Source: Hysterangium stoloniferum
Lineage: Eukaryota; Basidiomycota; Agaricomycetes; Hysterangiales; Hysterangiaceae
Direction: 5' to 3'
NCBI GenBank assembly: GCA_015178975.1
Contig: WHVD01000118.1
Span: forward strand, 1-64,000
DNA length: 64,000 nt
The notes beneath the pieces are model-generated. The model ran no database searches and had not been told where the DNA came from. It worked only from the letters and a program-made list of their open reading frames with translations. Positions 3,655-61,099 of the stretch are shown here, one piece after another. The stretch's first letter is position 1, and each line of letters begins with the position of its first letter. The position numbers and the translations under genes were made by a program.

Positions 3655-5110
3655 TTTTTGTCATAATTTACGTATATAAAAATGTACGCTAAAGGCTCTA
3701 TCACCCAGTTTCACATGGTCAAAACGGGAGGTCCGAGCCGATAGGACCTTCGTGAGGGGGTGGACAGGGAGTAAGGACATGCGTCTGAAGCATGCCATTA
3801 CAGACACCGCTAGCGCTCCCTACGCTCTCACAAAAGCAAATATATATTTCGTTGTCCGTATTGCGAGGTGAGTACATAGTTAATTGCTTAGATTGATGGC
3901 TGATCGTGACGCTGCACATTTTTAGCAGTATAAAAGGAGTCCTTAAATCATGCAAAACATACCCTCCGGATTCCCAACGGTTTCTTAGTCCCGTACGTCA
4001 CATGTGGGTGCGTGTTTCTTTCGCTTATGCTTCTTCCTCGACTGATCTAATCTCCAGCCGCTATCTGTGACTAATATATTACCCCCAGCGTATGAAACCC
4101 CCTATCTGTCCGCATCCTCGTTTCCAAGCGTGGCTATGAAAAGGTTGACAAGCAACGTATCGTATCCCCTTCGATAACGCCAGGATCTAGGCTGATCTCG
4201 GAAAACACCATATCCTCTCCATCGAGGATCTCTACTCATACATGCAGTTGGCCCGGTCTCAAACAGTTATTTTCTTTACCACGTCTTGTTCTGTTAAGTG
4301 TTAACAACACATCCTACCTCTCACTAGACCTAAAACTTCCTCTGGCCCCTTTGAACCATCCCGCTGATGTGGCCATGTAGGCGACTACCCAATGCCAACA
4401 AGCCGGTCAGGCAGATAAACTACTAAATAACCATGATCAACTATTACACATTTTCAATCCCCGATGACCTCCGTCTACCTCTGGGGTTATATGAATCTGT
4501 TTGATCAAGGTTGGGAGTTCGAGGCAATGTACGTTTTTGTGCAAAGTTTTAACAGTGGAGGAGGGATTTAAACAAAGGCTCCAACGATGATTTCTAGATT
4601 TTCACATCAGAAATCTGGAGATCTATGACCATTGTAGATGGTTCAGGTATGTAGATTACCTAGAATCCTCTGTAAAGCAATGCCTTATGGTCAGTCTATG
4701 CCACTGATATGCGCTATGTGGGAATACAATAAACTTGAAGGGAAACAACTTGGATGCGAGCTGCCTTTGATTTACTTACGTGGCAAATCTGTCGCATCAT
4801 TTTGGTTTCCCGGACGAACAGCGAACGATTGAGATGAACTCTGGAACCCCTTCTATTTAGCAGACGATGAATATAGATTTACGAGTCCCAGATACACCCG
4901 ATGGACAACCTGCGTACTAAGTGACGGCCAGCCTACCAATGGAGAGGGGCGTTTGTAGGCAGGGGTAGAGGACTGATCCTATGAAAGCGAAAACAGCATA
5001 GGAAGCATGACGTTATAATGGAAAGCGACCATGGGGAAATCAAAATCAGCTGCAAGTAAATATGAGAGTTCCAGTCGATCACAGCCTACGCACAAGAGCG
5101 TGCACAGGAA
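3655..5110. other. No recognisable gene
   Basis: Open frames are all below 80 codons and none resembles a known family. A stretch around 4,638-4,870 reads as a 64-codon frame, but without a recognisable domain. I cannot support a call here. Confidence 0.4.
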
Positions 5111-5200
5111 TATCCTCGATGACTTTTGTTATTATTCCTTTCTTCTTCGGAAGCCATTTTAAATGTGATGTATTCCTCTTCGATCCTCCTCTTCTTCTCC

Positions 5201-5378
5201 CTTTCATTCTCGGCTATCTACTGGAATAAGTCATCGTTATCCGACTATATCTCACAAAATGTACCTCTTCAAGCTTCTTCTTATGCTTCCTTTCATTCTC
5301 GGTTATCTTCTTGGATAAGTCATCGATTATCCAACAGTGTATTACAATATGTACCTCTTTTTCTCCTCCCTGAGCCTC
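5201..5378. repeat. 89-bp tandem duplication
   Basis: A unit beginning CTTTCATTCTCGG starts at 5,201 and again at 5,290, with about 90 percent agreement by eye (GGCTATCTACTGGA versus GGTTATCTTCTTGGA). On the minus strand it falls in a charged, Lys/Glu-rich frame that may be part of relic gene Y. Confidence 0.7.
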
Positions 5379-5399
5379 CCGGTCTCTTTCCTTCTCTCT

Positions 5400-6900
5400 T
5401 CGGACTTCTTTATTGCTTCCTGGATACATGATGAGATGAGTACTTGATTATTCGAGACCGTTCCCCAATGCTCACCACCACTACATATTTGTGCTCGTTG
5501 TATTTCTGAATTGTTCCCGCCACCCACGCTTTTTCAAATGGTTGTAACATGTCCTCAGGCTTGCGGCCTTGTGTGCCCATGGGGATCGTTTGGCAATAAG
5601 GCAAAATAGTAAGTTAACAAGTACCCAGCTTCCTCTTCGAAGGTTTGACAACAGCTCTGACATGTGTGTGCGATTGAATGGCACGATAAGCACATACGCG
5701 AACCAATAGCATTTGTTAGGTATTATGGTGTAGTCGACGGCTTGAAGCGGACGACTTTGACCTAAGTAACAAGCTTTGATAGAGTGAATGGCTCTCTAAT
5801 ACTCCTCAGATCCAATGATTCGATAATTTCAAACTCCGGCAATGGCTCAAGGAAGGCAGTAGTACTGTCAGAACAAAATTGGAACTCGTCTGAGACGTCC
5901 TGGGAAGACGACAAGATGGAAATGTCGACGGATGTATCGGTCAAAGAACGAGACGGAGACTTTTTGCTCGTTTTCATGGATCCTATGTCGGGGTTGGAAG
6001 CAATTTCCCCAGAAAGTAGCTAAGAGGGAAATTAGGGGTAGGAGGAACAGTGTTAGGAGGGTTCATGATGTTCCTCGTTCTTCTCCTTCTCAAGTCATTC
6101 CACAAGGCCATAGGACCTTCTAGGAGTTTCCTGGGGGCTTTCGGTTTGTTCAACGAAATGGCTTAAAAGAAATTCATGCTTTGGGTAGCACCATCTTGAT
6201 AAACTCGACGCGCTCTACTGTAATCTCGTCAGGTTCTTGTCCATCGCGAGGGAGCTGGAGGCATCTATAATTGGAACCTTAGTCGCCTTCCGAGTATCTG
6301 TGAAGGTGCCACTCTCCCTGTAACACAGGAATTTTCCATTGTCGTTACTCATGATGTAGTGGTGGAGATAAATGGCGAACTGGTAGCTGAAACGAAGTGG
6401 ATACGCTAACATTATCTTAGTGCCTGTTCAGATTGATTTAGTGGATAAATATTCAAACATGAGGTTGGGTTTTACTATGGAAAAAGTCCAAGTTTTCGAC
6501 ATGCGAGGAGGGAAATGCGACGTGGTGCCTCGAGGAGAATGACACATTGGTACCCAAGATAGCCCTTGGGTTTTGGGAAGCAAGGAGTAAAGATGGCCGG
6601 CTACTCTATTTTTGATGGAAACCTTGATAATGTGTTAGGAAAACCAATTGAAAACCGTGTATTTCTGTTAGGAGCCACCTTTTCAGAACCCCATCTGTAG
6701 TATTCACCTTACCAGCGATCTGCCATTCAATGCCTCTGACACCAGTGTCCCTGACAATGGTGTCCCAACAACACATTTGTTGAGTGATTTCTTTTCAGGG
6801 TCACACATGATGGCCTTCCCCTATTCCTTGTATCATTTACTTGTGGTATTCACTTTCTTTTGAATTCCTATTGTTTTGTTAAATCTATATATTCATCCCA
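5400..6900 (-). pseudogene. Relic gene Y, left copy of an inverted pair
   Basis: The minus strand carries several conserved blocks. MLAYPLRFSYQFAIYL through GTFTDTRKATK lies at 6,215-6,412, then a Ser-rich block at 5,762-5,977 (SDEFQFCSDS), then QTIPMGTQGRKPEDMLQPFE near 5,540-5,600. The same blocks in the same order occur on the plus strand at 26.6-28.2 kb. Both copies need the same frame change after MDKNL (near 6,219 here), so that point may be an intron or an ancestral frameshift. I do not recognise the family and infer no function. Stops and shifts indicate decay. Confidence 0.5.
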
Positions 6901-6902
6901 GT

Positions 6903-7337
6903 TGTCACAAATCATTTGTGACAAATCGTGCAAATCTGTGTGAATGAGCGACCAATCGTGACTCATCACGCGTACAGCTCCTGTGACATTGCTTCACCCT
7001 CACACCGTTCTACCTCAGGTATATAAATCATTGATCTTATTAGGATAACTGCAAGCCAGGGAACCACAGTATGAGACTCTCTATCTAGGTACTAAGTAAC
7101 TTAGATAGAGCGGTGTAGAATATAAACCAGTGATATAGCTGGGCTTCCAGTTGAGGTTTCTACCCCTCAATTGGATTAATTATATACTGTACTAAGTGGT
7201 CTGTGCACTAGTCTGTAGGACTATTTGCTCAGGAACTATCTAATAATAACTATCACATGATGTGAACCAGTTGAATCTATACAGACACAAAACGAGATAT
7301 GAGGTCATAGCTAATTGTATATACTCATATTCTAACA
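6903..7337 (+). mobile_element. Possible LTR remnant
   Basis: Homology with the inverted partner of relic gene Y stops near 6,900 and unrelated sequence follows. It starts TGTCACAAAT, has a TATATAA box near 7,019-7,026, a hairpin with 9-bp stems (7,079-7,087 with 7,102-7,110), and ends TTCTAACA at 7,337. TG...CA ends and a TATA box fit a copia-like LTR. I could not find a target duplication, so the boundaries are tentative. Confidence 0.3.
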
Positions 7338-7400
7338 GATATACCATGCTATTTACCGGTCCGTTATACACCCAATATAAGAGACTGAGTTTATTCGTGG

Positions 7401-7730
7401 TCACGGTTCTGCGAGTGTGGCGGGAATAGTGAGAGAAGGTCCATGCTCTTGTAGGATTTCGAACGACAGATTGCGAATGAGTGTAGTCAATGCTTCGGCG
7501 ATTAGGGCACGATCCTTTCCAGTGCTATGCAGTTCGGTCTTCGTCCACGGAGCCCCATTAATTGCCTGGGTAGGTGTGTCACTGAACATCCTTTTTATAA
7601 TCTTCAGCCTTGTCCTGATCCACGCACCGTTTTCAGGAGGACTTGACATGCTACAATCGGTGGCGGAGAAAAGCCAATATCTATTTTGACCATCATGCCT
7701 GATTGTAATTAACCCGTAAGACCTTTTCAC
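7401..7730 (-). CDS. Unrecognised 109-codon open frame
   Basis: An open frame from an ATG on the minus strand runs 109 codons without a stop in otherwise stop-rich DNA. No signal peptide, membrane segment or known motif is visible. It could be a surviving exon of a decayed gene or chance. Confidence 0.2.
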   Translation of the reverse strand: MKRSYGLITIRHDGQNRYWLFSATDCSMSSPPENGAWIRTRLKIIKRMFSDTPTQAINGAPWTKTELHSTGKDRALIAEALTTLIRNLSFEILQEHGPSLTIPATLAEP

Positions 7731-8115
7731 CCAGTGAAATGTGGGGCGAATGAAAAATTTCTGTACGATTCCAATGTGGAAATATGTTGATCAAAACGGT
7801 TGAGTGTGCATGTGGTTTCACATGCAGCTCACAGTATATACGGGGTTGTTGATGGGGATGACTCCTTTTGTGTTTGACAGCGTATTCAATAATGATAATT
7901 CCTCAATGTTTCTTATAACGTATATATTAGCAATTATATAACTGTAATCGACGAGGAATTGTGTCGCTCTCGGTACTGGAGTAAAAAATGTCTAACCAAT
8001 CTTCCAGTTTGAAACTCAGGAATGACAAAAAATTCAAACCGTTGCAAAGCGCTTGTCTAATTTCATAGTAATATACATCCACAGAACATGGGGGGCCAGG
8101 ATAATGAATACTGAG

Positions 8116-8640
8116 TTAGTACGCCGAGATCTCAGCACTCCGGATATCAAGGAGCATATGGACACACGCTTCTGTGACGTCCTTCCAGGGTGCTTTGGAA
8201 GGAACCTTCGCTTCCGCCATCAGGACGACATCGTGTCGATTCTCACACATGATGTGAATACGATCGCCCGCCCAGGTACCACGGTGGATGTCTCCTTGAT
8301 AGGCCATAGACGAAGAGGGATCATGAGACCAGCAAATTCGCGATAATATGGCCTGTGTGACACCCATCTCTTCCAGCCGGCTTCCGCAGTTATGCCCCTT
8401 TCGCGGATATACTCTTTCTTAGACATATTACGAACGACTCGTACCAGAGGCGACCTTTTATCGACAATCTCTTGAAAAATGCGCCAATCATGTGACCCTG
8501 GTACCATTGCCGCTGGAGGAAGTATACCACTGTCTTCGTCCCAGTCTTCAAACTCACGAATCCACGAATACAGACATTATGCTTTAGAAACTTCGGCAAG
8601 CTCTTCCTCAGTAAGCATTCCACGGGGGTAGTCATCATTC
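8116..8640 (-). pseudogene. Unrecognised eroded gene
   Basis: Minus-strand frames read in succession without large gaps. A block rich in Trp and Glu (AMVPGSHDWRIFQEIV, ERGITAEAGWKRWVSH) at about 8,360-8,507 is followed in another frame by YQGDIHRGTWAGDRIHIM near 8,250-8,300. The change of frame near 8,360 implies one shift, and there is an in-frame stop near 8,580. The composition looks like real protein, but I cannot name the family. Confidence 0.35.
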
Positions 8641-9829
8641 AAAACATAATTTCCGACACAAATAATGCGATGGTGAGCCGCAAGAGGAAAGAGGACGGTA
8701 GAATCTTTTTAATAGCATCCCAGATCACCCAGCAGGTTATTGCGAGGGAGACGGCGTCATCGACTTGGAGGGCATTAAAGATGGAGAGATGAATATCATA
8801 TGGGGGCTGTTCAATTTTACTTTGTGGGTATTTGGAACTACATATTCTGTTAGGGATGTGATTATTTTTGAGAGAGTGTAAACATACCTGCCATCCCTAG
8901 GCCGAACGATAGACCAATTCTTTTCGAAATGTTCCATTAAAACATCACACATTACAGGCCAGCATAGTAATACTATGATTTTAGGTTGTTCGTTTCAAAA
9001 GAATTCGCCTAATTTTAACCCGGAACGGTTGAGCGGGATGAGTCGTTGTGCATCTATATCGGCTCTTAAAGGTGACGTTAGCGATGGCAACTAGAGTGAC
9101 AATTATTGAAATTATCTACACACATATGCCAATACTGTCCCGAGAAGAATGTTGTTTCAGAAGAGGCGTCAGGTGACGCAGTTGATAATTTGTTTAAGCG
9201 GGGTTTTAAAAAAGGTTGGACGAAGGCGACGCGTCACACATATCTGGGACCTCTTGTGTGTGGCTGACGTTTGTTGAAAAGTGGGGTTGTTTAAGAACAC
9301 ATCTCCCACCAGTCATGCGGTTCTATTGAGCCGAGCATCTGCGGGGTAATTGAAACTAAAGGAGAGGTAATTATTCAACAGGTAATCAAATTTACTGTAA
9401 TGTACTCATGTCCGGCCGGATGCCGTTTGTGCATGTTCTGCAGGGTATATTCAAATTACGACATCCAGTTGTGTATATTGTACTTTAATCCTCTTAAAAC
9501 CACCGGATTGATCAGGAATAGTTGTTTTTTTTTTACCAATTGGCTCCACTATTTTACCGCCAATCCATGCTGCCCTAGGATATACAAGCACGGGTACGAT
9601 ATTACTCGTGGTGTTTCCAAAAAAAGGTGAGCCCAATTGTTATATTCATTTTGCTTGTGACATGATCAAGCCCCACAACAAGTGATCACTCCACTTCATC
9701 TGATGACTTTAACCTCATGCTTCTGACTTTAACCTCATGCTTCAATCCCCAATCTGTTGTACAAAGGATTGTCCTACCAGTCTCATTGTGCGACACACAA
9801 GGCTAGGTCGGGCTCTCCTGACGTCTGGT

Positions 9830-17092: not shown

Positions 17093-17461
17093 TCAATCTT
17101 GTTCCACTCCTCCTCCACCCTCTCCCACAACTCCAGTCTCCCTCAGCCTCCTCTCTTTATGATCCCACAAGTATTCAATGGGGTTGAGGTCTGGAAAATG
17201 TGCTGGCCATGGGAGGACATTAAAATCATTATCTTGAAACAAAGTCTGGGCCTTCTTGCAGGTGTGTTCAGGGTCATGATCTTGCTGAAAGATGACATTA
17301 CCCACATATTTTCCATAATAGCTGAGGCTGGCTTGAAGATTCTCCTCCATAATCTTGAGATAAAGGTACCCATCCATCCTCTCATCTATCTTGAAAGAAT
17401 ACCCAGGTCCTTCCCACAGCATGTAGCCCCATAATATCACAAATCCATCTCCAAACCTCAC
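17093..17461 (-). pseudogene. Tc1 transposase, C-terminal catalytic half
   Basis: The frame encodes GDGFVILWGYMLWEGPGYSF, then VIFQQDHDPEHTCKKAQ and PDLNPIEYLWDH. The spacing from the Asp of QQD to the Glu of NPIE is 34 residues, the DD34E signature of Tc1 transposases, which cut and rejoin DNA at TA. The first catalytic Asp would lie just upstream but is missing, replaced by the internal repeat copy. The extreme C-terminus is out of frame after RRLRETG. Confidence 0.8.
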
Positions 17462-17467
17462 AAAAAG

Positions 17468-17655
17468 TCCCTTCCAATGAGGCTCCTACATATAAATATT
17501 TGTAGTATTTCCATATTTGGAGCTTATGCAATTGCACTGTATTTACATAATATAGATATGATAGAGCATATTCACAAATATCTTTGATATTTTTGCATTT
17601 TTATTCTCTGAGTTATCAGGGATGTAAATCTGAAGTACCAAACATTGGAAGGGTT
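17468..17655 (+). repeat. Internal third copy of the Tc1 terminal repeat
   Basis: It reads like the right-hand repeat: CCCTTCCAATGAGGCTCC, then TTTGTAGTATTTCCATATTT, then CTGAAGTACCAAACATTGGA. It lies between the two transposase halves, exactly where the first catalytic region should be. Confidence 0.75.
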
Positions 17656-34395: not shown

Positions 34396-34757
34396 GAGCT
34401 TAAATTTCTGAGGAAGAGCCACTTTGGCTCAAAGATTGGGATGCTTTTGTTGAGGAGCTTAAAACCAACTTTGGAACTTTGGCCCATATGACCCAACTGG
34501 AGAAGCTGAGAACAGTCTCACAAATCTTTGTATGAAGGACATGCAGCACATCATGGACTACATCATCCAATTCAATAATCTTGCAGCTTGTTGTCAGTGG
34601 GGCGATCCCGCTCTCCGCCACCAATTCTATGCCGGTCTGCCATCCCGCCTTAAAGACAAAGTCTCAAAAGGAGAAGATGGCAAGCCAAAAACCCTGTCCC
34701 ATATGTGCCTCAAAGCTCAGACTAACAAGTCCGTGAAGTCTTCCGAAGACTCTGAAA
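34396..34757 (+). pseudogene. Gypsy A Gag fragment
   Basis: In one frame PLWLKDWDAFVEELKTNFGT; after a shift near 34,530, MQHIMDYIIQFNNLAACCQW then LRHQFYAGLPSRLKDKV. This is the Retrotrans_gag core of Tf1/Tf2-type elements, which forms the particle. It ends near 34,757, where coding jumps to reverse transcriptase. Confidence 0.75.
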
Positions 34758-35473
34758 AAACGGTCTTTTCACCAATGGTAAAAAATGCTACTTTGACATG
34801 GATTCTATTGAATACTTAGGTTTCATTATTGAACCCGAGGGTATCTGCATGGACGAAACCAAGGTTCAAGTTGTCTGTGATTGGCCTGAACCACGGAAAG
34901 TCAAAGACATTCAGTCATTTTTAGGTTTCGCAAACTTTTACCGTCATTTCATTCGGAATTACTTGGATATTACAATACCGCTTACTCATCTTACCCATAA
35001 AACTCAACCATGGATCTTTGACAACAAATGCCGCTCTGCTTTCCAGACTTTGAAAAATGCTTTCACTTCCACCCTGATTCTTTCTCATTGGAAACCTGAC
35101 ATTCTGATTATTGTGGAAACTGATGCTTCCAATTATGTAATTGCCACAATTCTTTCCATTCAAGATTCCAACGGTGAAATTCATCTGGTCACATTCCTTT
35201 CTCGGACACAACTCAACTATGGTGTTCATGATAAGGAAATTTTGGCAATTTTTGAAGCTTTCAAACATTGGTGTCATTACCTCGAAGGTTCTGCAACTCC
35301 CATTGATGTTGTTACCAATCATAAAAATCTCGAATATTTTTCTACCACTAAACTTTTGACCCACCAGCAAGCCCGCTGGTCCGAATTCCTTTCCACTTTC
35401 AACATGATTATCCATTTTTGACCCAGACGTCTTGGTGGAAAACCAGATGCCATGACTCGATGATGGGTGTCTA
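34757..35473 (+). pseudogene. Gypsy A reverse transcriptase end and RNase H
   Basis: Starts mid-domain at GLFTNGKKCYFDMD, continues IEYLGFIIEPEGI, VKDIQSFLGFANFYRHFI (thumb), then the RNase H core: ETDASNYVIATILS, HLVTFLSRTQLNYGVHDKE and VVTNHKNLEYF. The catalytic YLDD part is deleted. The frame is open to 35,421. Gypsy B keeps the missing palm domain. Confidence 0.85.
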
Positions 35474-42599: not shown

Positions 42600-43779
42600 T
42601 GTAACTGGCTTACCCACTACAATCCATTGATTGACTGGGTAGCTAACAGTATAACTTTCTGGACACCCGTAGCTTTTAAGGAAACTGTACCCAACATGGC
42701 CTCCATGGAACCCATGGCCTTCCTGGCACCTGCAGTCTTGAGGACTCCTGTGATCCCTACAGCACCCATGGCTTCCCTGGAACCATGGCACCTCCATCTA
42801 TTTCTCTTATTAATGCTGCAGTATTTATTACGGCTACAAAAATGGATGGGTGCCAGGTGTTCACTATCAATTTAAAAATTGATGAAGCAACTGGTCGTTT
42901 TTCAACTCCAGTATCTGCCTCTGAGCAAACTGCTGATCTAGAAGGTGTCCTGGAGAAATATCATGACTTCGTGGATGTGTTTAGTCAGCGAAAAGCTGAC
43001 CAGCTTCCGCCCCACAGAGAATATGACTTGAAAATCAACCTCAAAGAAGGTGCCCAGCCACCTCTTGGATATATTTACCAGCTTTTGTCCATGGAACGTT
43101 CTGCAATCCACGATCATTTGTCCATAGGCTTTATCAGACCCTCTAAATCTCCTTTTGGAGCACCTGGTTCTGTTTGTCAAGAAAAAGGATGGATCTCTTA
43201 GACTATGTGTTGATTTCAGAGGACTCAATGCTGTCACAAAAAAAAGGATAAGTATCCACTTCCACTTATATCTGACCTCCTCAATGCTCCACAGAATGCC
43301 TGGATTTACACCAAAATAGACCTTAAATGTGCCTATCATTTGGTCTGTATCTCCATGGGAGACAAATGGAAAACCACTTTCAGAACCCATTATGGAGCCT
43401 TTGAGTGGTTGGTGACGCCCTTTGGACTCACCAATGCTCCGTCTGTTTTTCAGCATTTTATCAACAACATTTTCTCCAACATGCTCAATGTATGCATCAT
43501 TGTTTACTTGGATGACATTCTTATCTACTCTGAGGACCCCGCAGAACATGACAAGCAAGTCCATGAAGTTCTCTGGAGGCTCAGACAACATGGTTTATTT
43601 GCAAATGGTAAAAAATGTAATTTTGACATGGACTTCGTGGAATACCTGGGCTTCATAATGGGACTTGATGGACTCCACATGGATGAAACTAAAGTACAAG
43701 TCATCAAAGATTGGCCAGAACCCCAAAAAGTCAAAGATATACAATCTTTCCTTGGCTTTGCCAATTTTTACCAATGGTT
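42600..43779 (+). pseudogene. Gypsy B protease end and reverse transcriptase
   Basis: Protease-linker VANSITFWTPVAF, then PISASEQ-like linker, EKYHDFVDVFSQRKADQLPP, a shifted segment near 43,200, then [33 protein letters not shown], the polymerase active site VYLDDILIYS (about 43,501-43,530), GLFANGKKCNFDMDFVEYLG and VKDIQSFLGFANFYQWF. The two catalytic Asp are present. One stop plus shift near 43,200 kills it, besides the Tc1 insertion at 43,780. Confidence 0.9.
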
Positions 43780-44099
43780 TACAGTAGGCAACAAAACCCT
43801 TACAATGTTGTGTACTTTTTGAAAGAAATGACTATTCCTCCTGAAATAAATTCTGTAAAATGCTGAAAATATTATGTAATATACTTCACCATCATACCTT
43901 CCATAATTGCACAGCCACAAGGCACCACATCCTTATTCGGTAAGTCCATATCACACACAAACCAATAGCTCATTGTATGGGTTTTGTTGCACACATTTTT
44001 AAAGTTCAACAAAGTCATGTGACCACTCTTCCTCAATGTATATAAGATGAAAGCAACCAGTTGGAATCCCACAATCACCTTACTCACAATGAAAAAAGC

Positions 44100-44962
44100 T
44101 CTCCTCCAGCCAAATCCAACATGTTCTTACTCTACTTGACTCTGGCATTTCTGGAGCTCAAATATGTTACCAAACTCATCTCAGCAGTGCCACCATCAGT
44201 CGTATTCACTCTGAGCTCCCCAAATGCTCTGGTGGCCATCCTACAAAGCTTACCACAGCCAATACTGCCTATACTAGAAGAATAATTTGCATGGGGAAGG
44301 TTGATAATGCCACACAGGCAACCAAGAGACTTATAGACATCATCAACACTCCTATTACTTCACAAACAGTGCATCGCCACCTCAAAACCATAGGCATGAG
44401 CTGTGGTAAAGAGAAAAAGGCGACTTCTCAAACCTCATCATCGGAAATCTCGATTGGAGTTTGCAGAAAGGCATTTGGAATGGACCCTGGAGGACTGGAA
44501 GAGGGTCATATGGTCTGATGAGACTAATATTAATAGGCTGGGATCAGATAGAAGGAAATATGTGTGGAAAAATGTGGGTGAGGGGTTAAATGATAGGTTA
44601 GTAGAGGGAACAGTCAAGTTTGGAGGAGGAAACCTGATGATGTGGGGATGCATGGGCTGGGATGGGGTTGGGTTTGCAACCAAAATTGATGGGAGGATGG
44701 ATGCTGAGCTTTATGTGGAGATCCTGGATGATGGACTCCAGCAAACCCTCAAATATTACAACAAAACAATGGCTGACATTGTGTTTCAACAAGACAATGA
44801 CCCGAAACACACCAGCAAAAAGGCCCAGAAATGGTTCACTGACAATGATGTTACAGTCCTCAAGTGGCCTGCACAATCTCCTGATATGAATCCTATTGAA
44901 CATCTGTGGAATCATGTCAAAAAGAAGCTGGGGGAGTATGAACAGCCTGCAAATAGTGATCA
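44100..44962 (+). pseudogene. Tc1 transposase, main part
   Basis: Helix-turn-helix part: SGAQICYQTHLSSATISRI and GGHPTKLTTANTAYTRRI (44,150-44,290), ITSQTVHRHLKTIGM. After a frameshift near 44,400: KPHHRKSRLEFAERHLEWTL, WSDETNINRLGSD (first Asp), GGGNLMMWGCMGW, VFQQDNDPKHTSKKAQ (second Asp), SPDMNPIEHLWNHVKKKL (Glu). Second Asp to Glu spacing is 34 residues (DD34E). All three catalytic residues are intact. The frame is cut at NSD by the palindrome and resumes at 51,375. Confidence 0.9.
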
Positions 44963-45034
44963 CACTGGAGGCACCCCAAGATTTTTGGAGTTGGAAAACC
45001 TTCAGAAAATCTTGTTATTTGGCCAAATTTTCTA

Positions 45035-45738
45035 AGTGTTTTGTGAATTGAAAAACTCTTTGAAAATTCTGAGTTTTAGTAGGTTTTTCTGAGGCCAAAA
45101 ATTGGATCTGAAAATTCTAAAAATTTGCATCAGGAAATTATGAGGAAATATTGTTGGAAATAGCCTATTCTTTATGGATTTTCTGAATAAGAAAACTCTT
45201 AGAAAACCCTGTATTTTGTTAGGATTTTTCCACCTAACAAAATCCTATGAAAACTGTAATAATGTGCCTAGAGAAATCAATTTGAAAACCACATATTTCT
45301 ACTTAATTTTGCCCCTGAGGGAATTCAGTGAAAACTATGGTTTTCTGCCTGAAAAAATCTTAAGCCAAGACAAAGTTTTTTTAATGTTTTGTCAAGGGGA
45401 AAACCATGATGAAATTTACAATTTAATTATACATAAAATCATTGAATAATTATATATTTCAACAAAATTTTCCTTGGTCATAAACACTATGGAAATTCAA
45501 AAAATCTGTTTGTGAAATCATGAAGAAATTGATGATTTTCCATGAGTTTCTTAGAGGTTTTTCAAGGTGAGAAACCCTGAACCGATGTTTTGCAATTCAG
45601 CATGATTCGCAAATATTCGAAAGGATACAGTGCGATTCAGTGTGATTCACAAATGTTTGAAAAGATACAGTGTGATTCATTACAATTGGCAAGTGTTTGG
45701 GAATATTCAATGCGATTTGCAAGTTTTCAGGAGGCTAG
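45035..45738. other. AT-rich non-coding segment of the palindrome, left
   Basis: No gene. It contains repeated words such as GAAAACTCTTAGAAAA and GTGCGATTCAGTGTGATTC-like units at 45,595-45,720. The mirror lies at 50,600-51,300. Confidence 0.6.
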
Positions 45739-46090
45739 AATGCGACTCTTTTAGACTTTTGCAACTATTCTAGACTGTTTGTGATTGTTTGCGACTCTTT
45801 GCGACTCTTTTGGACTTTTTGCGACTCTTTTGGACTTTTTGCGACTCTTTTGGACTCTTTGTGACTCATGTAGACTCTTTGCAACTTTTTGTGACTCGTT
45901 TAGATTCTTTGCGACTCTTTTAGATTCTTTGCAACTCTTTTAGATTCTTTGCGACTTTTTTAGACTCTTTGCGACTTACTCTTTGTGACTCTTTGAAAAG
46001 TTGCAAAGTCACACAAAGTCACAAAGTGTCGCACAAAGTCGCAAAGTATCGCAAAAAGTCACGTTGCAAAAAGTCGCAAAAGTGTCACAA
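45739..46090. repeat. Subterminal motif array, left
   Basis: Degenerate direct repeats of TTTGCGACTCTTTTGGACT and TTTGCGACTCTTTTAGATTC, then the opposite orientation near 46,000-46,080. Subterminal arrays of this kind bind CACTA transposases in plants. The mirror array is at 49,917-50,595. Confidence 0.8.
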
Positions 46091-46272
46091 ATCATAGCAG
46101 TGTCTTCACACAATAATAATCTATGTAAAAAGCCTCCAAAATTTCTATTATCCTCTTTTCTCTATGACCACAAACAATGATACACTATACACACAGCACA
46201 TGGACAAAGGGAGGAAAAAAACGCATCACTATCAATTATATAGATAATGTATGTTAAGAAGAAGCCACAGCA

Positions 46273-46470
46273 AACCTGATATACAGTAGGAGGTATCGCA
46301 TGTGAATTTGAAGCTGGGGGATGATGGCGTGGAACAAGAAAATGGGGCTTGGCGCAGGCAGTATCCAAGATGGCGGCAGCGGCAGGGGGCAGGCTGGGGT
46401 GATGGTGGGTAGGTACAGGTAGTTGAGTGTCGATGCCAGTATCATCAAGTGCAGGATATAAATGAGACAT
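46273..46470 (-). pseudogene. Second captured coding segment, left copy
   Basis: Mirror of 49,541-49,738. The frame ends PASNSHAIPPTVYQ before GTTTGC. Differences from the right copy are mostly single substitutions, several of them changing an amino acid. Confidence 0.4.
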
Positions 46471-46722
46471 TGGGTATATTAAGTAGAATATACTTTTTAC
46501 TTGTATAAATCTTGAAAGCTGGCGCAGTGCTGGCTGGGGCGGGGTGACAAGGCGGGGAGAGGTGCTGTGGACGTGATGGTGTGATATAATATGCTGAGCA
46601 AGAAAAAGGGAATCCAACTCCAAGTCTAGCTGGAGAGGATAGCAATAGAAGTGGGGGGGGGATAACCAAAGGGAGCCGGCCAGAGGAGACGATGGCGAAA
46701 CGTGATCACTCATCCATCCTAT

Positions 46723-47764
46723 TCATATCTCCGTTTTCATCGTCCGCATACTGCTCCACAGACTGCCATGCTGCACATTTGCGGGGGACAGCGCAAGCGT
46801 GGTCCCCAGGCCCGACGGGTGCTGGTACGACTGGCGCGTCGTCGACGTGTGCGGGTGATGCGAGCCAGTATACGACGTGTGGTGCCAGTCGCACGCCTCC
46901 CCGCGAGAAATGGCCCGGCCCCCACCTCTGCGCCCGATCCGCCCCCCGCCGTACCGCTCGAGCTGGTCGTGGTGGTGCTCGGCGAGCCCCCAGGGCCCTG
47001 CGGGAAAAACGGCGCCGTCAGCGTCCCAAGCCCCAGCGTGCCGCCCCCACCCCCTCCGCCGCTACCGCCCCTACTCGCGTTCCCCGCACCACTGCCGCTC
47101 CCGCTGAGGCTGCCGTATCTGCTCCCGCCGTTCCCCGCGGCGCCGCTACCAAGCCCAGGCGGGAAGCCCCCAAAGTCCGCGCTCGAGCCGGTCTCGTCGG
47201 ACCAGTTCTGCGCGTGGTACGGGGGTGCGCGCCGCCGTGCGCGATCGGGTGCAGCGGCGCGAGGTGCAGCGTGTCGTAGGGCCCGTTCCCGTGTCCGTGT
47301 CCATCGCCGCCGCCGCCGTGCGGCCCGTGCCCGTGCCCATGTCCCTGTCCATGGTCGTGCGGCCCATACCCGTATCCTTGCGGCCCGTGGGGCCGGTGGC
47401 CGCCGTGCGTGTGCCCTAGCTTGGGGAAGGCGGGGTGCCATGTCGCGGCCGGGGGGAAGCGGTCGTCGGGGTCCGCGTGGACGGCGGGTCCGTTCAGCGC
47501 GAGCACGGCATCGGCGTAGTGGCTGCTGCTGGAGTAGTAGGCCGTGGCGAGCCCGTAGGGGAGGCGGTAGGGTGCGCCGTCGACGGGGGAGACGCTGCCG
47601 TACTCATCGGCGGGGAAGTCGTGCGGCGAGATGGAGGTGTTGTAGGGCGAGGCATCGGTGCGGCGCTTCTTGCAGCTGTTGTTGGAGCGGGGGCGGTAGA
47701 TGTATCGGGGTACTTGGAGTTGAAGTTTTCCTTCAACTTTTTTGGCTTGGTCGAGCTGCTTGCG
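46723..47764 (-). pseudogene. Captured HMG-box gene fragment, left copy
   Basis: On the minus strand, from the axis outward, a Lys-rich helix KPKKLKENFNSKYPD is followed, after a one-base frame change, by YIYRPRSNNSCKKRR. Together they are the end of a MATA/SOX-type HMG box, a DNA-bending domain of transcription factors. Next come SPHDFPADEYGSVSPVDG, a His/Gly-rich stretch, then in other frames NWSDETGSSADFGGFPPGLG, a Gly/Ser-rich stretch and ALSPANVQHGSLWSSM to a stop at 46,723-46,725. The segment is far more GC-rich than its surroundings. The first two-thirds of the HMG box and the gene's 5' end are missing here. At least three frame changes are shared with the right copy. Confidence 0.75.
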
Positions 47765-48246
47765 ACACTGCACAAAGTCGCAAAGTGTCACACAAAGTCG
47801 CAGAGTGTCACAAAAAGTCGCAAAGTGTCACACAAAGTCTCAAAGTGTCACAAAAAGTCGCACAAAGTCGCAAAGTGTCACACAAAGTCGCAAAGTGTCA
47901 CAAAAAGTCGCAAAGTCCCACAAAGTCACAAAATGTCACAAACAGTCTCAAACGCAAAAAGTCGCAAAGTGTCACAAAAAGTCGCATCCCACAAAGTCAC
48001 AAAATGTCACACCGACTTTTTGTGACACTTTGCGACTTTGTGTGACACTTTGCGTTTGAGACTGTTTGTGACATTTTGTGACTTTGTGGGACTTTGTGAC
48101 TTTTTGTGACACTTTGCGACTTTGTGTGACACTTTGCGACTTTGTGCGACTTTTTGTGACACTTTGAGACTTTGTGTGACACTTTGCGACTTTTTGTGAC
48201 ACTCTGCGACTTTGTGTGACACTTTGCGACTTTGTGCAGTGTCGCA
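47757..48246. repeat. Central motif array at the palindrome axis
   Basis: Units of CACAAAGTCGCAAAGTGT and CACAAAAAGTCGCAAAGTGT run to the centre and back in reverse. The core AAAGTCGCAAAG is shared with the subterminal arrays, so the captured gene is bracketed by the same motif on both sides. Confidence 0.85.
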
Positions 48247-49288
48247 AGCAGCTCGACCAAGCCAAAAAAGTTGAAGGAAAACTTCAACTCCAAGTACCCC
48301 GATACATCTACCGCCCCCGCTCCAACAACAGCTGCAAGAAGCGCCGCACCGATGCCTCGCCCTACAACACCTCCATCTCGCCGCACGACTTCCCCGCCGA
48401 TGAGTACGGCAGCGTCTCCCCCGTCGACGGCGCACCCTACCGCCTCCCCTACGGGCTCGCCACGGCCTACTACTCCAGCAGCAGCCACTACGCCGATGCC
48501 GTGCTCGCGCTGAACGGACCCGCCATCCACGCGGACCCCGACGACCACTTGCCCCCCGCCGCGACATGGCACCCCGCCTTCCCCAAGCTGGGGCACACGC
48601 ACGGCGGCCACCGGCCCCACTGGCCGCAAGGACACGGGTCTGGGCCGCACGACCATGGACAGGGACATGGGCACGGGCACGGGCCGCACGGCGGCGGCGG
48701 CGATGGACACGGACACGGGAACGGGCCCTAGGACACGCTGCACCCCGCGCCGCTGCACCCGATCGCGCACGGCGGCGCGCACCCCCGTACCACGCGCAGA
48801 ACTGGTCCGACGAGACCGGCTCGAGCGCGGACTTTGGGGGCTTCCCGCCTGGGCTTGGTAGCGGCGCCGCGGGAACGGCGGGAGCAGATACGGCAGCCTC
48901 AGCGGGAGCGGCAGTGGTGCGGGGAACGCGAGTAGGGGCGGCAGCGGCAGCGGCGGAGGGGGTGGGGGCGGCACGCTGGGGCTTGGGACGCTGACGGCGC
49001 CGTTTTTCCCGCAGGGCCCTGGGGGCTCGCCGAGCACCACCACGACCAGCTCGAGCGGTGCGGCGGGGGGCGGATCGGGCGCGGAGGTGGGGCCGGGCCA
49101 TTTCTCGCGGGGAGGCGTGCGACTCGCACCACACATCGTATACTGGCTCGCATCACCCGCACACGTCGACGACGCGCCAGTCGTACCAGCACCCGTCGGG
49201 CCTGGGGACCACGCTTGCGCTGTCCCCCGCAAATGTGCAGCATGGCAGTCTGTGGAGCAGTATGCGGACGATGAAAACGGAGATATGA
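48247..49288 (+). pseudogene. Captured HMG-box gene fragment, right copy
   Basis: Inverted partner of 46,723-47,764 with the same frame changes (near 48,290, 48,785 and 49,095) and the same stop (49,286-49,288). It also has its own nonsense change at 48,729. The C-terminal part reads SYTGSHHPHTSTTRQSYQHP then LALSPANVQHGSLWSSMRTM. Transcribed through the axis, the two copies would form a long hairpin RNA matching the parent gene. Confidence 0.75.
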
Positions 49289-49540
49289 ATAGGATGGATG
49301 AGTGATCACGTTTCGCCATCGTCTCCTCTGGCCGGCTCCCTTTGGTTATCCCCCCCCCACTTCTATTGCTATCTTCTCCAGCTAGACTTGGAGTTGGATT
49401 CCCTTTTTCTTGCTCAGCATATTATATCACACCATCATGCCCACAGCACCTCTCCCCGCCTTGTCACCCCGCCCCAGCCAGCACTGCGCCAGCTTTCAAG
49501 ATTTATACAAGTAAAAAGTATATTCTACTTAATATACCCA

Positions 49541-49738
49541 ATGTCTCGTTTATATCCTGTGCCTGATGATACTGGTATCGATACTCAACTACCTGTACCT
49601 ACCCACCATCACCCCAGCCTGCCCCCTGCCGCTGCCGCCATCTTGGATACTGCCTGCCCCAAGCCCCATTTTCTTGTTCCATGCCATCATCCCCCAGCTT
49701 CAAATTCACATGTGATGTGTACCTCCTACTGTATATCA
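49541..49738 (+). pseudogene. Second captured coding segment, right copy
   Basis: An ATG at 49,541 starts MSRLYPVPDDTGIDTQLPVP, then THHHPSLPPAAAAILDTACP, and the frame stays open to a CAG-GTTTGC boundary near 49,738. The left arm has MSHLYPALDDTGIDTQLPVP in the mirror position (46,273-46,470). Preserved frame in both suggests it was coding. It could be exon 1 of the HMG gene in permuted order, or a neighbouring gene. Confidence 0.4.
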
Positions 49739-49916
49739 GGTTTGCTGTGGCTTCTTTTTAACATAGATTATCTATATAATTGACAGTGATGTGTTTTTTT
49801 CCTCCCTTTGTCCATGTGCTGTGTGTGTAGTGTATCATTGTTTGTGGTCATAGAGAAAAGAGGATAATAGAAATTTTGGAGGCTTTTTACATAGATTATT
49901 ATTGTGTGAAGACACT

Positions 49917-50595
49917 GTGCTATGATTTGTGACACTTTTGCGACTTTTTGCAACACGACTTTTTGCGATACTTTGCGACTTTGTGCGACACTTTGTGACT
50001 TTATGCGACTTTGTGACTTTGTGACACTTTGCGACTTTGTGCGACTTTGCAACTTTTCAAAGAGTCACAAAGAGTAAGTCGCAAAGAGTCCAAAAAAGTC
50101 GCAAAGAATCTAAAAGAGTCGCAAAGAATCTAAAAGAGTCGCAAAGAATCTAAAAGAGTCGCAAAGAATCTAAAAGAGTCGCAAAGAATCTAAAAGAGTC
50201 GCAAAGAATCTAAAAGAGTCGCAAAGAATCTAAAAGAGTCGCAAAGAATCTAAAAGAGTCGCAAAGAATCTAAAAGAGTCGCAAAGAATCTAAAAGAGTC
50301 GCAAAGAATCTAAAAGAGTCGCAAAGAATCTAAAAGAGTCGCAAAGAATCTAAAAGAGTCAAAAAGAGTCTATAACAGTCGTAACAAGTCTATAAGAGTC
50401 ACAAAGAGTCTAAAAGAGTCACAAAGAGTCTAAAAGAGTCACAAAGAGTCCAAAAGAGTCACAAAAAAGTCACAAAAAGTCCAAAAGAGTCGCAAAAAGT
50501 CCAAAAGAGTCACAAACAGTCTATCAGAGTCGCAAACAGTCGCAAATAATCACAAAGAGTCTAGAATAGTCGCAAAAAGTCTAAAAGAGTCGCAC
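49917..50595. repeat. Subterminal motif array, right
   Basis: Mirror of the left array but about 320 bp longer. It contains the perfect 20-bp tandem block at 50,101-50,360 plus degenerate GTCACAAAGAGTCTAAAAGA units on both sides. Confidence 0.85.
50101..50360 (+). repeat. 20-bp tandem repeat, 13 perfect units
   Basis: GCAAAGAATCTAAAAGAGTC is repeated 13 times without a mismatch. The left arm has only about three imperfect units at the mirror position (near 45,905-45,965), so this expansion is recent. Confidence 0.95.
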
Positions 50596-51374
50596 TCTAG
50601 CCTCCTGAAAACTTGCAAATCACATTGAATATTCCCAAACACTTGCCAATTATAATGAATCACACTGTATCTTTTCAAATATTTGCGAATCGCACTGAAT
50701 CACACTGTATCCTTTCGAATATTTGCGAATCATGCTGAATTGCAAAACATCGGTTCAGGGTTTCTCACCTTAAAAAACCTCTAAGAAACTCATGGAAAAT
50801 CATCAATTTCTTCATGATTTCACAAACAGATTTTTTGAATTTCCATAGTGTTTATGACCAAGGAAAATTTTGTTGAAATATATGATTATTCAATGATTTT
50901 ATGTATAATTAAATTGTAAATTTCATCATGGTTTTCCCATTGACAAAACATTAAAAAAACTTTGTCTTGGCTCAAGATTTTTTCAGGCAGAAAACCATAG
51001 TTTTCACTGAATTCCCTCAGGGGCAAAATTAAGTAGAAATATGTGGTTTTCAATTGATTTCTCTAGGTACATTATTACAGTTTTCATAGGATTTTGTTAG
51101 GTGGAAAAATCCTAACAAAATACAGGGTTTTCTAAGAGTTTTCTTATTCAGAAAATCCATAAAGAATAGGCTATTTCCAACATTATTTCCTCATAATTTC
51201 CTGATGCAAATTTTTAGAATTTTCAGATCCAATTTTTGGCCTCAGAAAAACCTACTAAAACTCAGAATTTTCAAAGAGTTTTTCAATTCACAAAACACTT
51301 AGAAATTTTGGCCAAATAACAAGATTTTCTGAAGGTTTTCCAACTCCAAAAATCTTGGGATGCCTCCAGTGTCA

Positions 51375-51492
51375 TGAACTGTGGGAGAGGGTGGTGTGGG
51401 AAGAGATTCCAAAGGAGAAGTATCAGAAGCTTATTGAGAGTATGCATAGAAGACTTGCAGCAGTGATTAGAGCAAAGGGGGGCCATACTAAA
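51375..51492 (+). pseudogene. Tc1 transposase, C-terminus beyond the palindrome
   Basis: The frame continues with ELWERVVWEEIPKEKYQKLI, then ESMHRRLAAVIRAKGGHTKC, the usual end of Tc1 transposases (SM-RR, GGHTKY-like). With one TCA copy removed it joins 44,962 in frame. Confidence 0.9.
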
Positions 51493-51739
51493 TGCCAATT
51501 TCTTGTAATAATAGTCTCAAAATAGTGTGCAACAAAACCCTTACAATCAGCTATTGGTTTGTGTGTGATGTGGACTTACCAAATAAGGACATGGTGCCTT
51601 GTGGCTATGCATTTCTGGAAGCTATGATGTTGAAGTATATTACATAATATTTTCAGTAATTTACAGAATTTATTTCTGGAGGAATAGCCATGTCTTTCAA
51701 AAAGTGCAAAACATTGTAAGGATTTTGTTGCCTACTGTA

Positions 51740-58301: not shown

Positions 58302-61099
58302 CAGTGTTCTGGCGGTCCTTTTCACACCCTTTTATGATTCGCGACTCATACCTTCCACAATCAATTTTTAGTACATCTGAGTAATACATCTTGTTCTATG
58401 GGGTCCTATAAGTGTATTTACATACACTGGTAAAGATAAATGAAGAGGAACCACTTCATCGACATTGAATTCTGTCGACAATGCATTTGTCACAAAATTC
58501 ACTTCATTCACAGCATGTGACATGTGTGACACACTGTGTTTATCGATGGTTATCTCTACGAGCCATCGTCATCTACATCGTCCTGCCCCTCATTGTTGTC
58601 CTCCGGCTCCGTCAATTTAGGCTTAGTGGGACGTTTTGGCTTCTTTGGTAAGTCCTTCACCTTTACCCCAGCTGCTCCTCTCCTTCTCTGCTTCCTCCTG
58701 TGCTTTCGTGTCCTCAAGCTCCCACTTCTGCTTGATGAGCTCAACATCAGTCAGATGCCTGCCCTTTCCTCCTGGAAACAAGATTGTACGGTCTGACTTC
58801 TTTCCCTTCTCCTTTTCATGCAAAGTATGATTCATTCTCTCCATTCCTATATTCTGGATGACAAGTTGAGCATTCTGCCCTTCCATAATCATTTCCTGTG
58901 CCTCGAGCCGCTGCTGAGCTAAAAGCAAATTTCTTTCTAGGGCTTTGCATTGTGACTCGAGGGCGCTACATGTGAACTCCAAAAGCGGTGCATGTTTGTC
59001 AAGAAGTGACCAGTCGGGAGTCACTATTTTGCCAGAGACACGTTCTAGGACAGGTGGGTGGATGGCTCGTTTCATCTCAAGGTGTGTTACATGTGCTTTT
59101 ATGACTAGGAATGATCCTGATGAAGTGTTTGCAAGGCCAACCCCAAGCAGCCACATCCACTTACATGGTGTTGCCAGGTCAGGATTTGATGCAGGATCAC
59201 GGCATTTGGACGGTGTAAGGAGTGGGGGATTTGTATCAACAGCCATTGGGATTGGATTAGAGAGGGAACCGGGGAAATTTGAAGGTCCAGCTGTGGGGGG
59301 TGAGTCTGGTTGGGTCCCCTGTGTCGTGAAGCTGTAATCACGGAAGGTGACCATCACAGCATGTGTGGGGCTGGTTTGTGGTTGCGGGAATGAAGCCTGT
59401 GTGGAGGTATTCTCACTCGGCTTCATCTGAGTGGGTTGGATGACATTCAGATTGAATGGTTGGAGTCCTGTGGCCTTGAATGCTGCCGTGATAGTCTCAG
59501 GGGTAAATGCTTTGAGGAATGCTTCTCTGAAGACTTGGCAGAAGTCTTCCTTACCAACACCTCGTTGGTGAAAGGTCTTGAACTCATCAATTTGATTTTT
59601 CCAGGCCGCCTTCATTTTCGTGAAGCATACAACGTCAAGCCCCTGCAAAGCATGTGTACAGTGAGGTGGGTATCCGAGCACCTCAATGTTGTTTGCCATA
59701 CAATACTCCAGGAGGTCAGCCGTGTAATGCGAGCTATGGCCTTCCATTAAAAGACACATGTTTTGCCAGCAGCTTTCTCGCGTGTCTGGGGATCGAAATC
59801 CTTTGTGATCCACTCATATGCTAAACTTCCATCAGTCCACCCATTCTCGGACACGCAGAGCCTGTGGAAGGTTAGTGTTCACTACAATTAGCATGTTTGA
59901 AGGTACTCACGAAGCTCCAGACACGTTATTCTCCCCCCACTTCTCCAAGAAATTATGCCCTTTGAAGATGATGGTCAGCTTGAGGGCAGTTACATTCTTG
60001 TGATTAGCACTCCCAACCTTTTGCTGGGTTTTTGTATCCCGCCATCCAACTACACACTGAGTGCCTTGGTTTGACGGTGGGAAGCCGCTCTCATCCATTC
60101 CATAGATATTTTCCTTCTTGACACCCCTCTTCACAATCAGCTCTTCAACCAATTTAAATCACTCTTTGACTGATTCTTCATTCAGTGAATGTGCCCTCTC
60201 TGTAGCCAAGGGCTTCGACCAATGAGTCTGAAGCTCATCATGATATCTGTCCAGAGACCTGCCAACCCAAGACTCTCCAACAGGTTCTCCTGGTTCAACC
60301 CACCCTGCTATGATTGTGTTTGCATGAAGTGTGATGTTGTGTGGAGTAAGAGGGATGCTGCGATCAGCAGATGCAATGATACAATCAACAAGAACGTGCT
60401 CTTCTGGATAGGATAATTTGCACTTTGACGCGTTAAATGCACTCATTGTCATTTTCCCATTTGCTAGATTACCCAGGGTCCTGTAGCAGATGTCATGTGT
60501 TGCAGCAATGGGTTGAAGACTGTGTCGCTGTTTTACAGGTTTTTCCTGCTCACGCCTGTACTCGTCAAGGGCTTCCTGATATTTCAAATTTTCAGCTCTA
60601 CGACATGCCTGACATTTTACCTGTTCGGAAAGTGCGCGCCCAACCATTTTGACCAGTCAAAAGAGGCAAGAGGGGCCCAAGAAGCAGGAAGACTGATTGC
60701 CAGTGTGGCAGGATGCTGTGTACTGTCACACTCTGTTGGCATCAATTATCTTCTGATTTTTTCCTCCCTCAGTTTTTGCCTGATTCCCTTCATTTCTTCA
60801 CTAGATTCTGCTATATATATGTACACATTCAGGCCAATTTTTAACAAAATGAGTTGTATGCAGGAATGTGTCCGATTAAGGGAGATAAAAAGGATGAACT
60901 TTTCAAATTCTGCTTTTTTGCTAGATATGACACTCCCATGCTTCACCCACTCTCCCGAAAATTATCAGAATTATTTTCAAGATTGATATCATGTCTATAT
61001 GTGTGACTACAAAGTGATTAAGTGTTTGGATGAGGATTGAAGGAGTAAAGGCCAGGTGTGAAAAGGACCAGGGATGTGAAAAGGACTGCCAAATCACTG
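58302..61099 (-). mobile_element. Pogo/Fot1-like DNA transposon, 2,798 bp, TA duplication
   Basis: TA flanks it (58,300-58,301; 61,100-61,101). Terminal repeats start CAGTGTTCTGGCGGTCC (left) and CAGTGATTTGGCAGTCC (right, read inward), followed by TTTTCACA in both. The minus strand carries a pogo-type transposase gene with one intron. Its removal rejoins the chromodomain as MELGNATEIVTDFHTAYL. Confidence 0.9.
58560..60647 (-). pseudogene. Pogo-like transposase (DDE_1, CENP-B-type DNA-binding domain)
   Basis: From ATG at 60,647: helix-turn-helix and CENP-B-like region (THDICYRTLGNLANGKM, LSYPEEHVLVDCIIASADRS), a TGA stop in place of a probable Trp near 60,160, then NIYGMDESGF with the first catalytic Asp. 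An intron follows near 59,872-59,921 (GTGAGT donor, CCACAG acceptor), then LCVSENGWTDGSLAYEWITK, a one-base shift near 59,760, then LLMEGHSSHYTADLLEYC, GYPPHCTHALQGLDVVCF and a long charged C-terminus (to about 58,623). In the second catalytic motif the Asp of the usual DGHSSH is Glu here. The enzyme would bind the ends and cut at TA, but this copy is inactive. Confidence 0.85.

Follow-up and report, generated by a model that had tools for sequence, protein, structure and literature searches.

Can a palindrome of several kilobases move as a single transposon, and how would it be built? The question is raised by a 64,000-nucleotide stretch of the Hysterangium stoloniferum genome (contig WHVD01000118.1, positions 1 to 64,000, here called the window), in which a Tc1 transposase gene is interrupted by a near-perfect palindrome with CACTG tips. 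We think it probable that this palindrome is a non-autonomous CACTA-like element in which a captured piece of a host gene was doubled by duplication of an arm, that it spread as a unit, and that its arms were recopied onto each other. The window corresponds to G000:C22:1-64000, and the genome searched comprises 111.1 Mb in 554 contigs; L-numbers designate loci or elements cut from this genome, C-numbers its contigs, and WIN the window copy.

A palindromic element inserted into a Tc1 transposase gene

The element occupies positions 44963-51371 (6,409 bp), between the ends CACTGGAGGCACCCC and CACTGGAGGCATCCC. The near-perfect palindrome reported there by an initial annotation of the window proved real: when the element was aligned to its own reverse complement, the arms were 97.7% identical at ungapped positions (5,918 matches, 139 mismatches and 704 gap columns, both halves counted). 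Of the approximately 350 gap columns per half, 317 fall in the arrays at 45741-46091 and 49926-50594, which are unequal in length. The mirror symmetry of the arms is incomplete: the subterminal 20-bp arrays hold about 12 copies on the left versus about 26 on the right. The longest inverted repeat free of gaps lies at the centre, with 853 nt per arm at 98% identity around a 34-nt loop. The G+C content reaches 0.64 in 47001-49000, compared to 0.39-0.49 in most kilobases outside the element. Twelve frames, taken from a listing of those of at least 120 amino acids inside the element, matched 0 Pfam families, so no transposase of its own was detected.

To see the site without the insertion, the two flanks were joined with one TCA and searched in the genome. 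All 40 scored places (375 candidates) matched the full 180-bp query at 94-95%. Four of these copies (L058-L061) were fetched and aligned, and all four had an uninterrupted TTCATGAACTG with a single TCA; the window differs from them at one base adjoining the TCA. The 40 matches were 186 bp long, 6 bp beyond the query, which might have contradicted a 3-bp duplication. This was rejected, as the 6-bp gap sits 18 bp downstream of the TCA in the four aligned copies and is a separate change. Based on the single TCA and the uninterrupted site, we conclude that three bases were duplicated on insertion and that, judging from the four copies, none was lost. In the initial annotation, removal of the element with one TCA had likewise rejoined the Tc1 transposase.

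The GC-rich core is a captured host gene fragment

Two things had escaped the initial annotation: the signs of arm recopying, described below, and the nature of the GC-rich core, which is host DNA captured in both arms. It consists of the 3′ part of an HMG-box transcription-factor gene, one capture per arm, with its source on contig C34. Nine HMG-box matches were found in the genome, and among these nine loci only the one on C34 (L050) matches the core. Aligned to the source (L054), the right arm is 91.9% identical over 335 bp and 84.5% over 1,251 bp. The alignment begins no more than about 20 nt from the 3′ end of an intron lying inside the HMG box, and continues beyond the open frame into downstream sequence, presumably the 3′ untranslated region. 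The intron is indicated by the Ramaria homologue: the C34 protein has homologues in fungi, which we take to be Agaricomycetes, the best being that of Ramaria rubella (72% identity over 54% of the query). Around 1859-1890 of L054, the frame of the source gene is shifted compared to the captured copies, which leaves its exact stop codon uncertain; a frameshift in the source gene, or an error in its sequence, may be the cause.

The captured block was matched by all 12 capture-bearing elements of the sample described in the next section. Captures differ from the source by 9.4-14.4%, with the exception of L014_R, a short piece (6.6% over 259 sites). One old capture fits, because the window arms have small deletions in common. 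Genome-wide, 46 capture 3′ junctions were detected (20 forward, 26 reverse), and 0 with the control. By its sequence the element is of the Pack type, with the capture in both arms: it holds a host gene fragment whose source locus is on C34, and the window copy lacks a transposase. In two copies the capture is joined to another fragment, of about 390 bp (L037 5381-5770 and L035 2961-3349, element coordinates), which occurs at 18 places in the genome at 86-100% identity.

A large family with the same tips

A 26-nt tip pattern, allowing up to 3 mismatches, was found 255 times in forward and 254 times in reverse orientation (509 in total), and its reversed control 0 and 0 times. We fetched 33 further elements with paired tips, so that 34 were examined with the window copy. 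They came from the first 100 of the 509 tips, in an exact-match listing, and from a list of the best 40, a sample biased to well-preserved tips; two pairs more than 30 kb apart (C20, C172) were left out. A perfect 3-bp target-site duplication (TSD) flanked 29 of the 34 elements, namely 22 of the 22 that contain arrays only and 7 of the 12 that bear a capture. Other copies with both CACTG tips, proposed in the initial annotation as a check, are therefore abundant.

Lengths range from 2.3 to 16 kb, and the inverted terminal matches of most copies from about 0.5 kb (L036) to 3.1 kb (L038_39). The array-only elements have a G+C content of 0.28-0.32. Two of them, L028 and L029, align end to end with their own reverse complement at 85-86%, which means that array mirror symmetry is not restricted to the capture type. 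The 20-bp unit of L028, the one array-only copy printed, resembles by eye that of the window, and the array motifs are present in capture-bearing copies too.

Palindromes at several loci share a central spacer

Two inverted captures are present in 8 of the 12 capture-bearing copies (WIN, L010, L014, L027, L037, L038_39, L041_42 and L043_44), the second one being incomplete in L014 (266 bp), in L043_44 (459 bp) and in L027 (partial). A further two-capture copy, on contig C246, is known from its junction positions and three stretches (L062-L064). The remaining four (L013, L035, L036 and L040) have a single capture. In L013, the cleanest of these, the capture is joined to the inner array of the opposite arm at a GCGACAC match (by eye); this copy may be ancestral, or a deletion derivative of a palindrome.

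Between the central arrays, L010, L037, L038_39 and L041_42 have a spacer of about 450 bp in common. Three of them are flanked by their own perfect TSD (AAA, TGT and TAT for L010, L037 and L038_39 respectively); L041_42 has none. When 40 of 320 candidates were scored (85 rows), spacer matches of at least 258 bp at 95% identity or more were found at nine places in the genome. Many shorter matches, down to 78%, were among the same scored candidates, so part of the spacer is also another dispersed repeat. The shared spacer and the separate TSDs point to one founder palindrome that was then transposed as their best account, and through them the proposal of the initial annotation that the palindrome moved as a single unit gains indirect support.

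Several capture-bearing copies contain other sequences. Retroelement insertions were found inside L043_44 (L043 6114-7508, RVT_1 and RNase H) and inside L041_42 (L042 3-2699, RVT_1). The centre of L038_39 (about 4221-8772, element coordinates) holds long frames: in its interior, three frames matched no Pfam family and two matched only below curated cut-offs (RVT_3, zinc fingers). A DIRS-type insertion, read there by eye, was not confirmed by these scans, and the frames might include a transposase.

Traces of probable arm recopying

Over the terminal 760 bp, an element's own two ends were nearest relatives in L010, L013, L035, L037 and L038_39 among the 12 capture-bearing copies, with a tie in L014, and in L018 and L030 among the 22 array-only elements, with a tie in L034. 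For the window copy and for the 19 array-only elements that remain, one end or both lay closer to an end of another element. The comparison is distorted for L043_44, whose terminal region is interrupted, and for L036, whose terminal region is truncated; L025_L is rearranged.

Identity between the arms of single elements is patchy. In L038_39, 0 substitutions and one 1-bp gap were found in 2,998 positions per arm from the tip inwards, after which the arms diverge abruptly. The terminal regions of L037 and L010 differ at 0 and 1 of 749 positions respectively, with many differences further in. In L041_42, all 51 differences between the captures (51/51) lie within the first 844 of 1,670 positions. 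The C246 arms, compared in three separate pieces, show 0 mismatches in 1,092 paired positions beside the centre, followed by a 188-nt loop inside the spacer; about 265 further positions of the outer arm are without mismatch, and between the terminal regions 1 of 554 positions differs. Moreover, the two matches of this copy to the spacer cover overlapping parts of one spacer end, in opposite orientation. Such a pattern is what the copying of sequence from one arm to the other, or a fold-back, would leave. The arms thus appear to have been recopied onto each other within single elements.

A reading of the C246 copy as symmetric out to both tips was wrong, the arrays differing by one unit. In the stretch read (L064), its right terminal region could not be followed to the outer end: outside position 149749 the region stops at a short sequence with inverted repeats, CTACCTTTTGAACAAGTTAT..., which may be a small inserted element.

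Probable assignment to the CACTA group

Judged by its ends, the family is likely CACTA-like. The features named by the initial annotation (tips, 3-bp duplication and subterminal arrays) were all recovered, with the 5′-CAC..GTG-3′ termini and 3-bp TSD of CACTA/EnSpm (CMC) elements and 20-bp arrays adjoining both terminal regions of the window copy. CACTA elements usually have short terminal inverted repeats, a trait that is not strictly defining; the inverted terminal matches described above are long in most copies.

Transposase families in the genome include Plavaka (68 matches), KDZ (71) and Transposase_21 (PF02992, 12). None of these matches was seen, by eye, within 15 kb of exact tips among the first 100 of the 509. 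Two Plavaka loci (7.2 and 7.2 kb) and one Transposase_21 locus (5.5 kb), L055-L057, had no match to the tips within the stretches read, and the six frames of at least 90 amino acids in the 22 array-only elements showed nothing transposase-like by eye. A 468-amino-acid tnp2 frame (E 5.1e-20) lies in the Transposase_21 locus (L057, G000:C339:9200-14700), where the family's tips are missing. Membership of Plavaka was rejected on the CACTG tips, as Plavaka termini are TGT..ACA or CATCA..TGATG, and fungal EnSpm families, unlike PlavakaA/B, have CAC..GTG ends and 3-bp duplications (PMC12730594). KDZ was rejected on the TSD, reported as 8 bp or 4-8 bp versus 3 bp here.

Proposed origin and alternatives

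In the explanation that we favour, the family would be made of cut-and-paste elements mobilised in trans by a transposase acting on the CACTG tips and the subterminal arrays. An ancestor with inverted subterminal arrays would have captured one piece of about 1.7 kb from the HMG-box gene of C34. An inverted duplication of the arm, probably by strand switching between inverted arrays, would then have put the capture in both arms, and the palindrome would have spread as a unit, making 3-bp duplications. Finally, gene conversion or fold-back synthesis may have recopied the arms within single copies, as suggested by the zero-difference arms and the patchy identity. Such recopying could erase the spacer and bring the palindrome close to perfect symmetry, the condition seen in the window copy.

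Several observations weigh against this scheme. A perfect TSD is missing in five of the 12 capture-bearing copies (L013, L014, L036, L041_42 and L043_44). The spacer is absent in 8 of the 12 (the window copy, L014, L027, L043_44 and the four with a single capture), and since half of the eight two-capture copies are also without it, four copies form the basis for a single founder. The copies with one capture might be the ancestral ones, and support is poor at the base of the capture tree. The two terminal regions of the window copy are not mutual nearest relatives (0.018 within the element; the left one is nearest to L043_44_R at 0.011, the right one to L013_R at 0.014), which means that its arms have partly separate histories. 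Lastly, the 34 elements, whose frames were judged mostly by eye and some by Pfam scan, revealed no transposase that goes with these tips.

The initial annotation had suggested a head-to-head dimer of a smaller element. The smaller form has candidates, as single-capture copies exist (L013, L035, L036 and L040, three of them, L013, L035 and L040, of 4.3-4.8 kb), even if L013 is equally explained as a deletion derivative. The dimer did not survive: with up to 3 mismatches in 15, no internal tip was found in the window element, so that an arm, and not the whole element, was duplicated. For the same reason, it is very unlikely that two monomers, or a whole-element dimer, came to be adjacent, through chance or recombination, and mimic one element. 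Internal tips are also absent from L010, L037 and L041_42, the one internal match of L038_39, with 3 mismatches, is unconvincing, a single TSD surrounds the whole window element, and four sister palindromes share the central spacer. We would give still less credit to an assembly or sequencing artefact made by inverted chimeric reads. Long-read libraries are known to yield artefactual inverted duplications, but in the window copy the two arms are about 2% divergent and their arrays are unequal by more than 300 bp, a TSD copy flanks both ends, and the architecture recurs at other loci.

Two further alternatives are improbable to a lesser degree. Each palindrome could have been built at its own locus from a single-capture element, and never have transposed as such. 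The terminal regions that are mutual nearest relatives in L010, L013, L035, L037 and L038_39, and the C246 arms, which look recently recopied, would agree with such local events; the spacer common to four palindromes at different loci, three of them with their own TSD, fits a founder that moved. The family might also fall outside CACTA, in another superfamily with 3-bp TSDs or an undescribed group sharing CACTG tips. This would account for the lack of an EnSpm transposase linked to the tips in what was examined, and for terminal repeats far longer than the 24 bp of CNIRT6, a CACTA element of Cryptococcus neoformans. We find it unlikely, as CACTG tips with variable 3-bp TSDs are those reported for CNIRT6 (PMC12810828), while the reported fungal PlavakaA/B termini and KDZ TSDs differ.

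Comparison with known systems and possible consequences

Long palindromes are thought to be unstable. In sex chromosomes, arm-to-arm gene conversion keeps the arms of large palindromes alike; those palindromes are fixed and chromosomal, whereas here we deal with a dispersed mobile family. Several-kilobase palindromes sit in this high-copy mobile family despite their presumed instability. Apparent stages of their formation are visible, from an asymmetric spacer to a spacer folded into a 188-nt loop and to a 34-nt loop, so the origin and maintenance of eukaryotic palindromes become testable in one genome.

Among described elements, CNIRT6 is about 7.5 kb long, with 24-bp terminal repeats, and encodes a transposase (PMC12810828). 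Our family shares with it the CACTG tips, the variable 3-bp TSDs and a fungal host, and differs by inverted terminal matches of 0.5-3.1 kb in most copies, by a transposase not found and by the captured host gene fragment. Pack-TIR elements, including Drosophila Ssk-FB4, likewise are DNA elements mobilising a host gene fragment, and template switching in repetitive terminal repeats was proposed as their origin (PMC8277862). By analogy, these models may be the closest precedent for the origin of our family, which differs in its fungal host and in having the fragment in each of the inverted arms. Plant Mutator-like elements are reported to hold acquired sequence inside extended terminal repeats; long terminal inverted repeats are common to these elements, Pack-MULEs and ours, unlike the TSDs, 9-11 bp there and 3 bp here, and the CACTG tips (PMC3310237). 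Among the titles and abstract openings listed in searches of open-licence literature, none names a palindromic gene-capturing CACTA element in fungi. Our family would also extend the capture of genes by DNA transposons to CACTA-like fungal elements, in a double-arm form suited to hairpin RNA.

If transcribed throughout, the element could give rise to a hairpin RNA in which each strand contains about 1.7 kb of capture. The right and left arms have 207 and 217 exact 21-mers in common with the source locus, respectively, and 19 Piwi-domain matches were found in the genome. It is conceivable, if rather doubtful, that we are looking at a self-renewing palindromic transposon, in which the symmetry after capture is rebuilt by arm copying within each insertion, and which would be a hairpin source for host RNA interference against the parent gene. 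If so, self-renewal would keep the element ends matched, and the stolen transcription-factor fragment would become a long natural source of hairpins.

Other features of the window

Positions of the element parts and of the interrupted gene are given in Table 1.

Table 1. Parts of the palindromic element and of the Tc1 gene that it interrupts (window positions)
Feature	Positions	Strand	Basis
Tc1 transposase frame, 5′ part, interrupted	44400..44962	+	Pfam DDE_3, E 1.9e-15, frame 44400-45032
Left TSD copy, TCA	44960..44962	.	sequence, empty-site alignment
Left terminal region, about 775 bp, tip CACTGGAGGCA	44963..45737	+	
Left subterminal 20-bp tandem array, about 12 copies	45741..45976	+	
Left inner array, GTCGCACAAAGTCACAAAGT type	46005..46091	+	
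Captured 3′ part of HMG-box gene (exon 2 onward and downstream sequence), left-arm copy	46093..47768	-	
Left central array	47771..47986	+	
34-nt loop at palindrome centre, without the spacer present in some sister copies	47987..48020	.	
Right central array, inverted copy of the left	48021..48237	-	
Captured 3′ part of HMG-box gene, right-arm copy	48239..49924	+	
Right inner array	49926..50056	-	
Right subterminal 20-bp tandem array, about 26 copies	50077..50594	-	
Right terminal region, closing with the inverted tip	50598..51371	-	
Right TSD copy, TCA	51372..51374	.	
Tc1 transposase frame, 3′ part	51375..51506 (end approximate)	+	

An Rfam scan of the window gave no match at gathering thresholds. 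Further transposase remnants lie on the minus strand at 17096-17485 and 58626-59813, with DDE_3 (Tc1 type) and DDE_1 domains, and retroelement frames on the plus strand at 34756-35418 and 43214-43819, with RNase H domains and the reverse transcriptase RVT_1.

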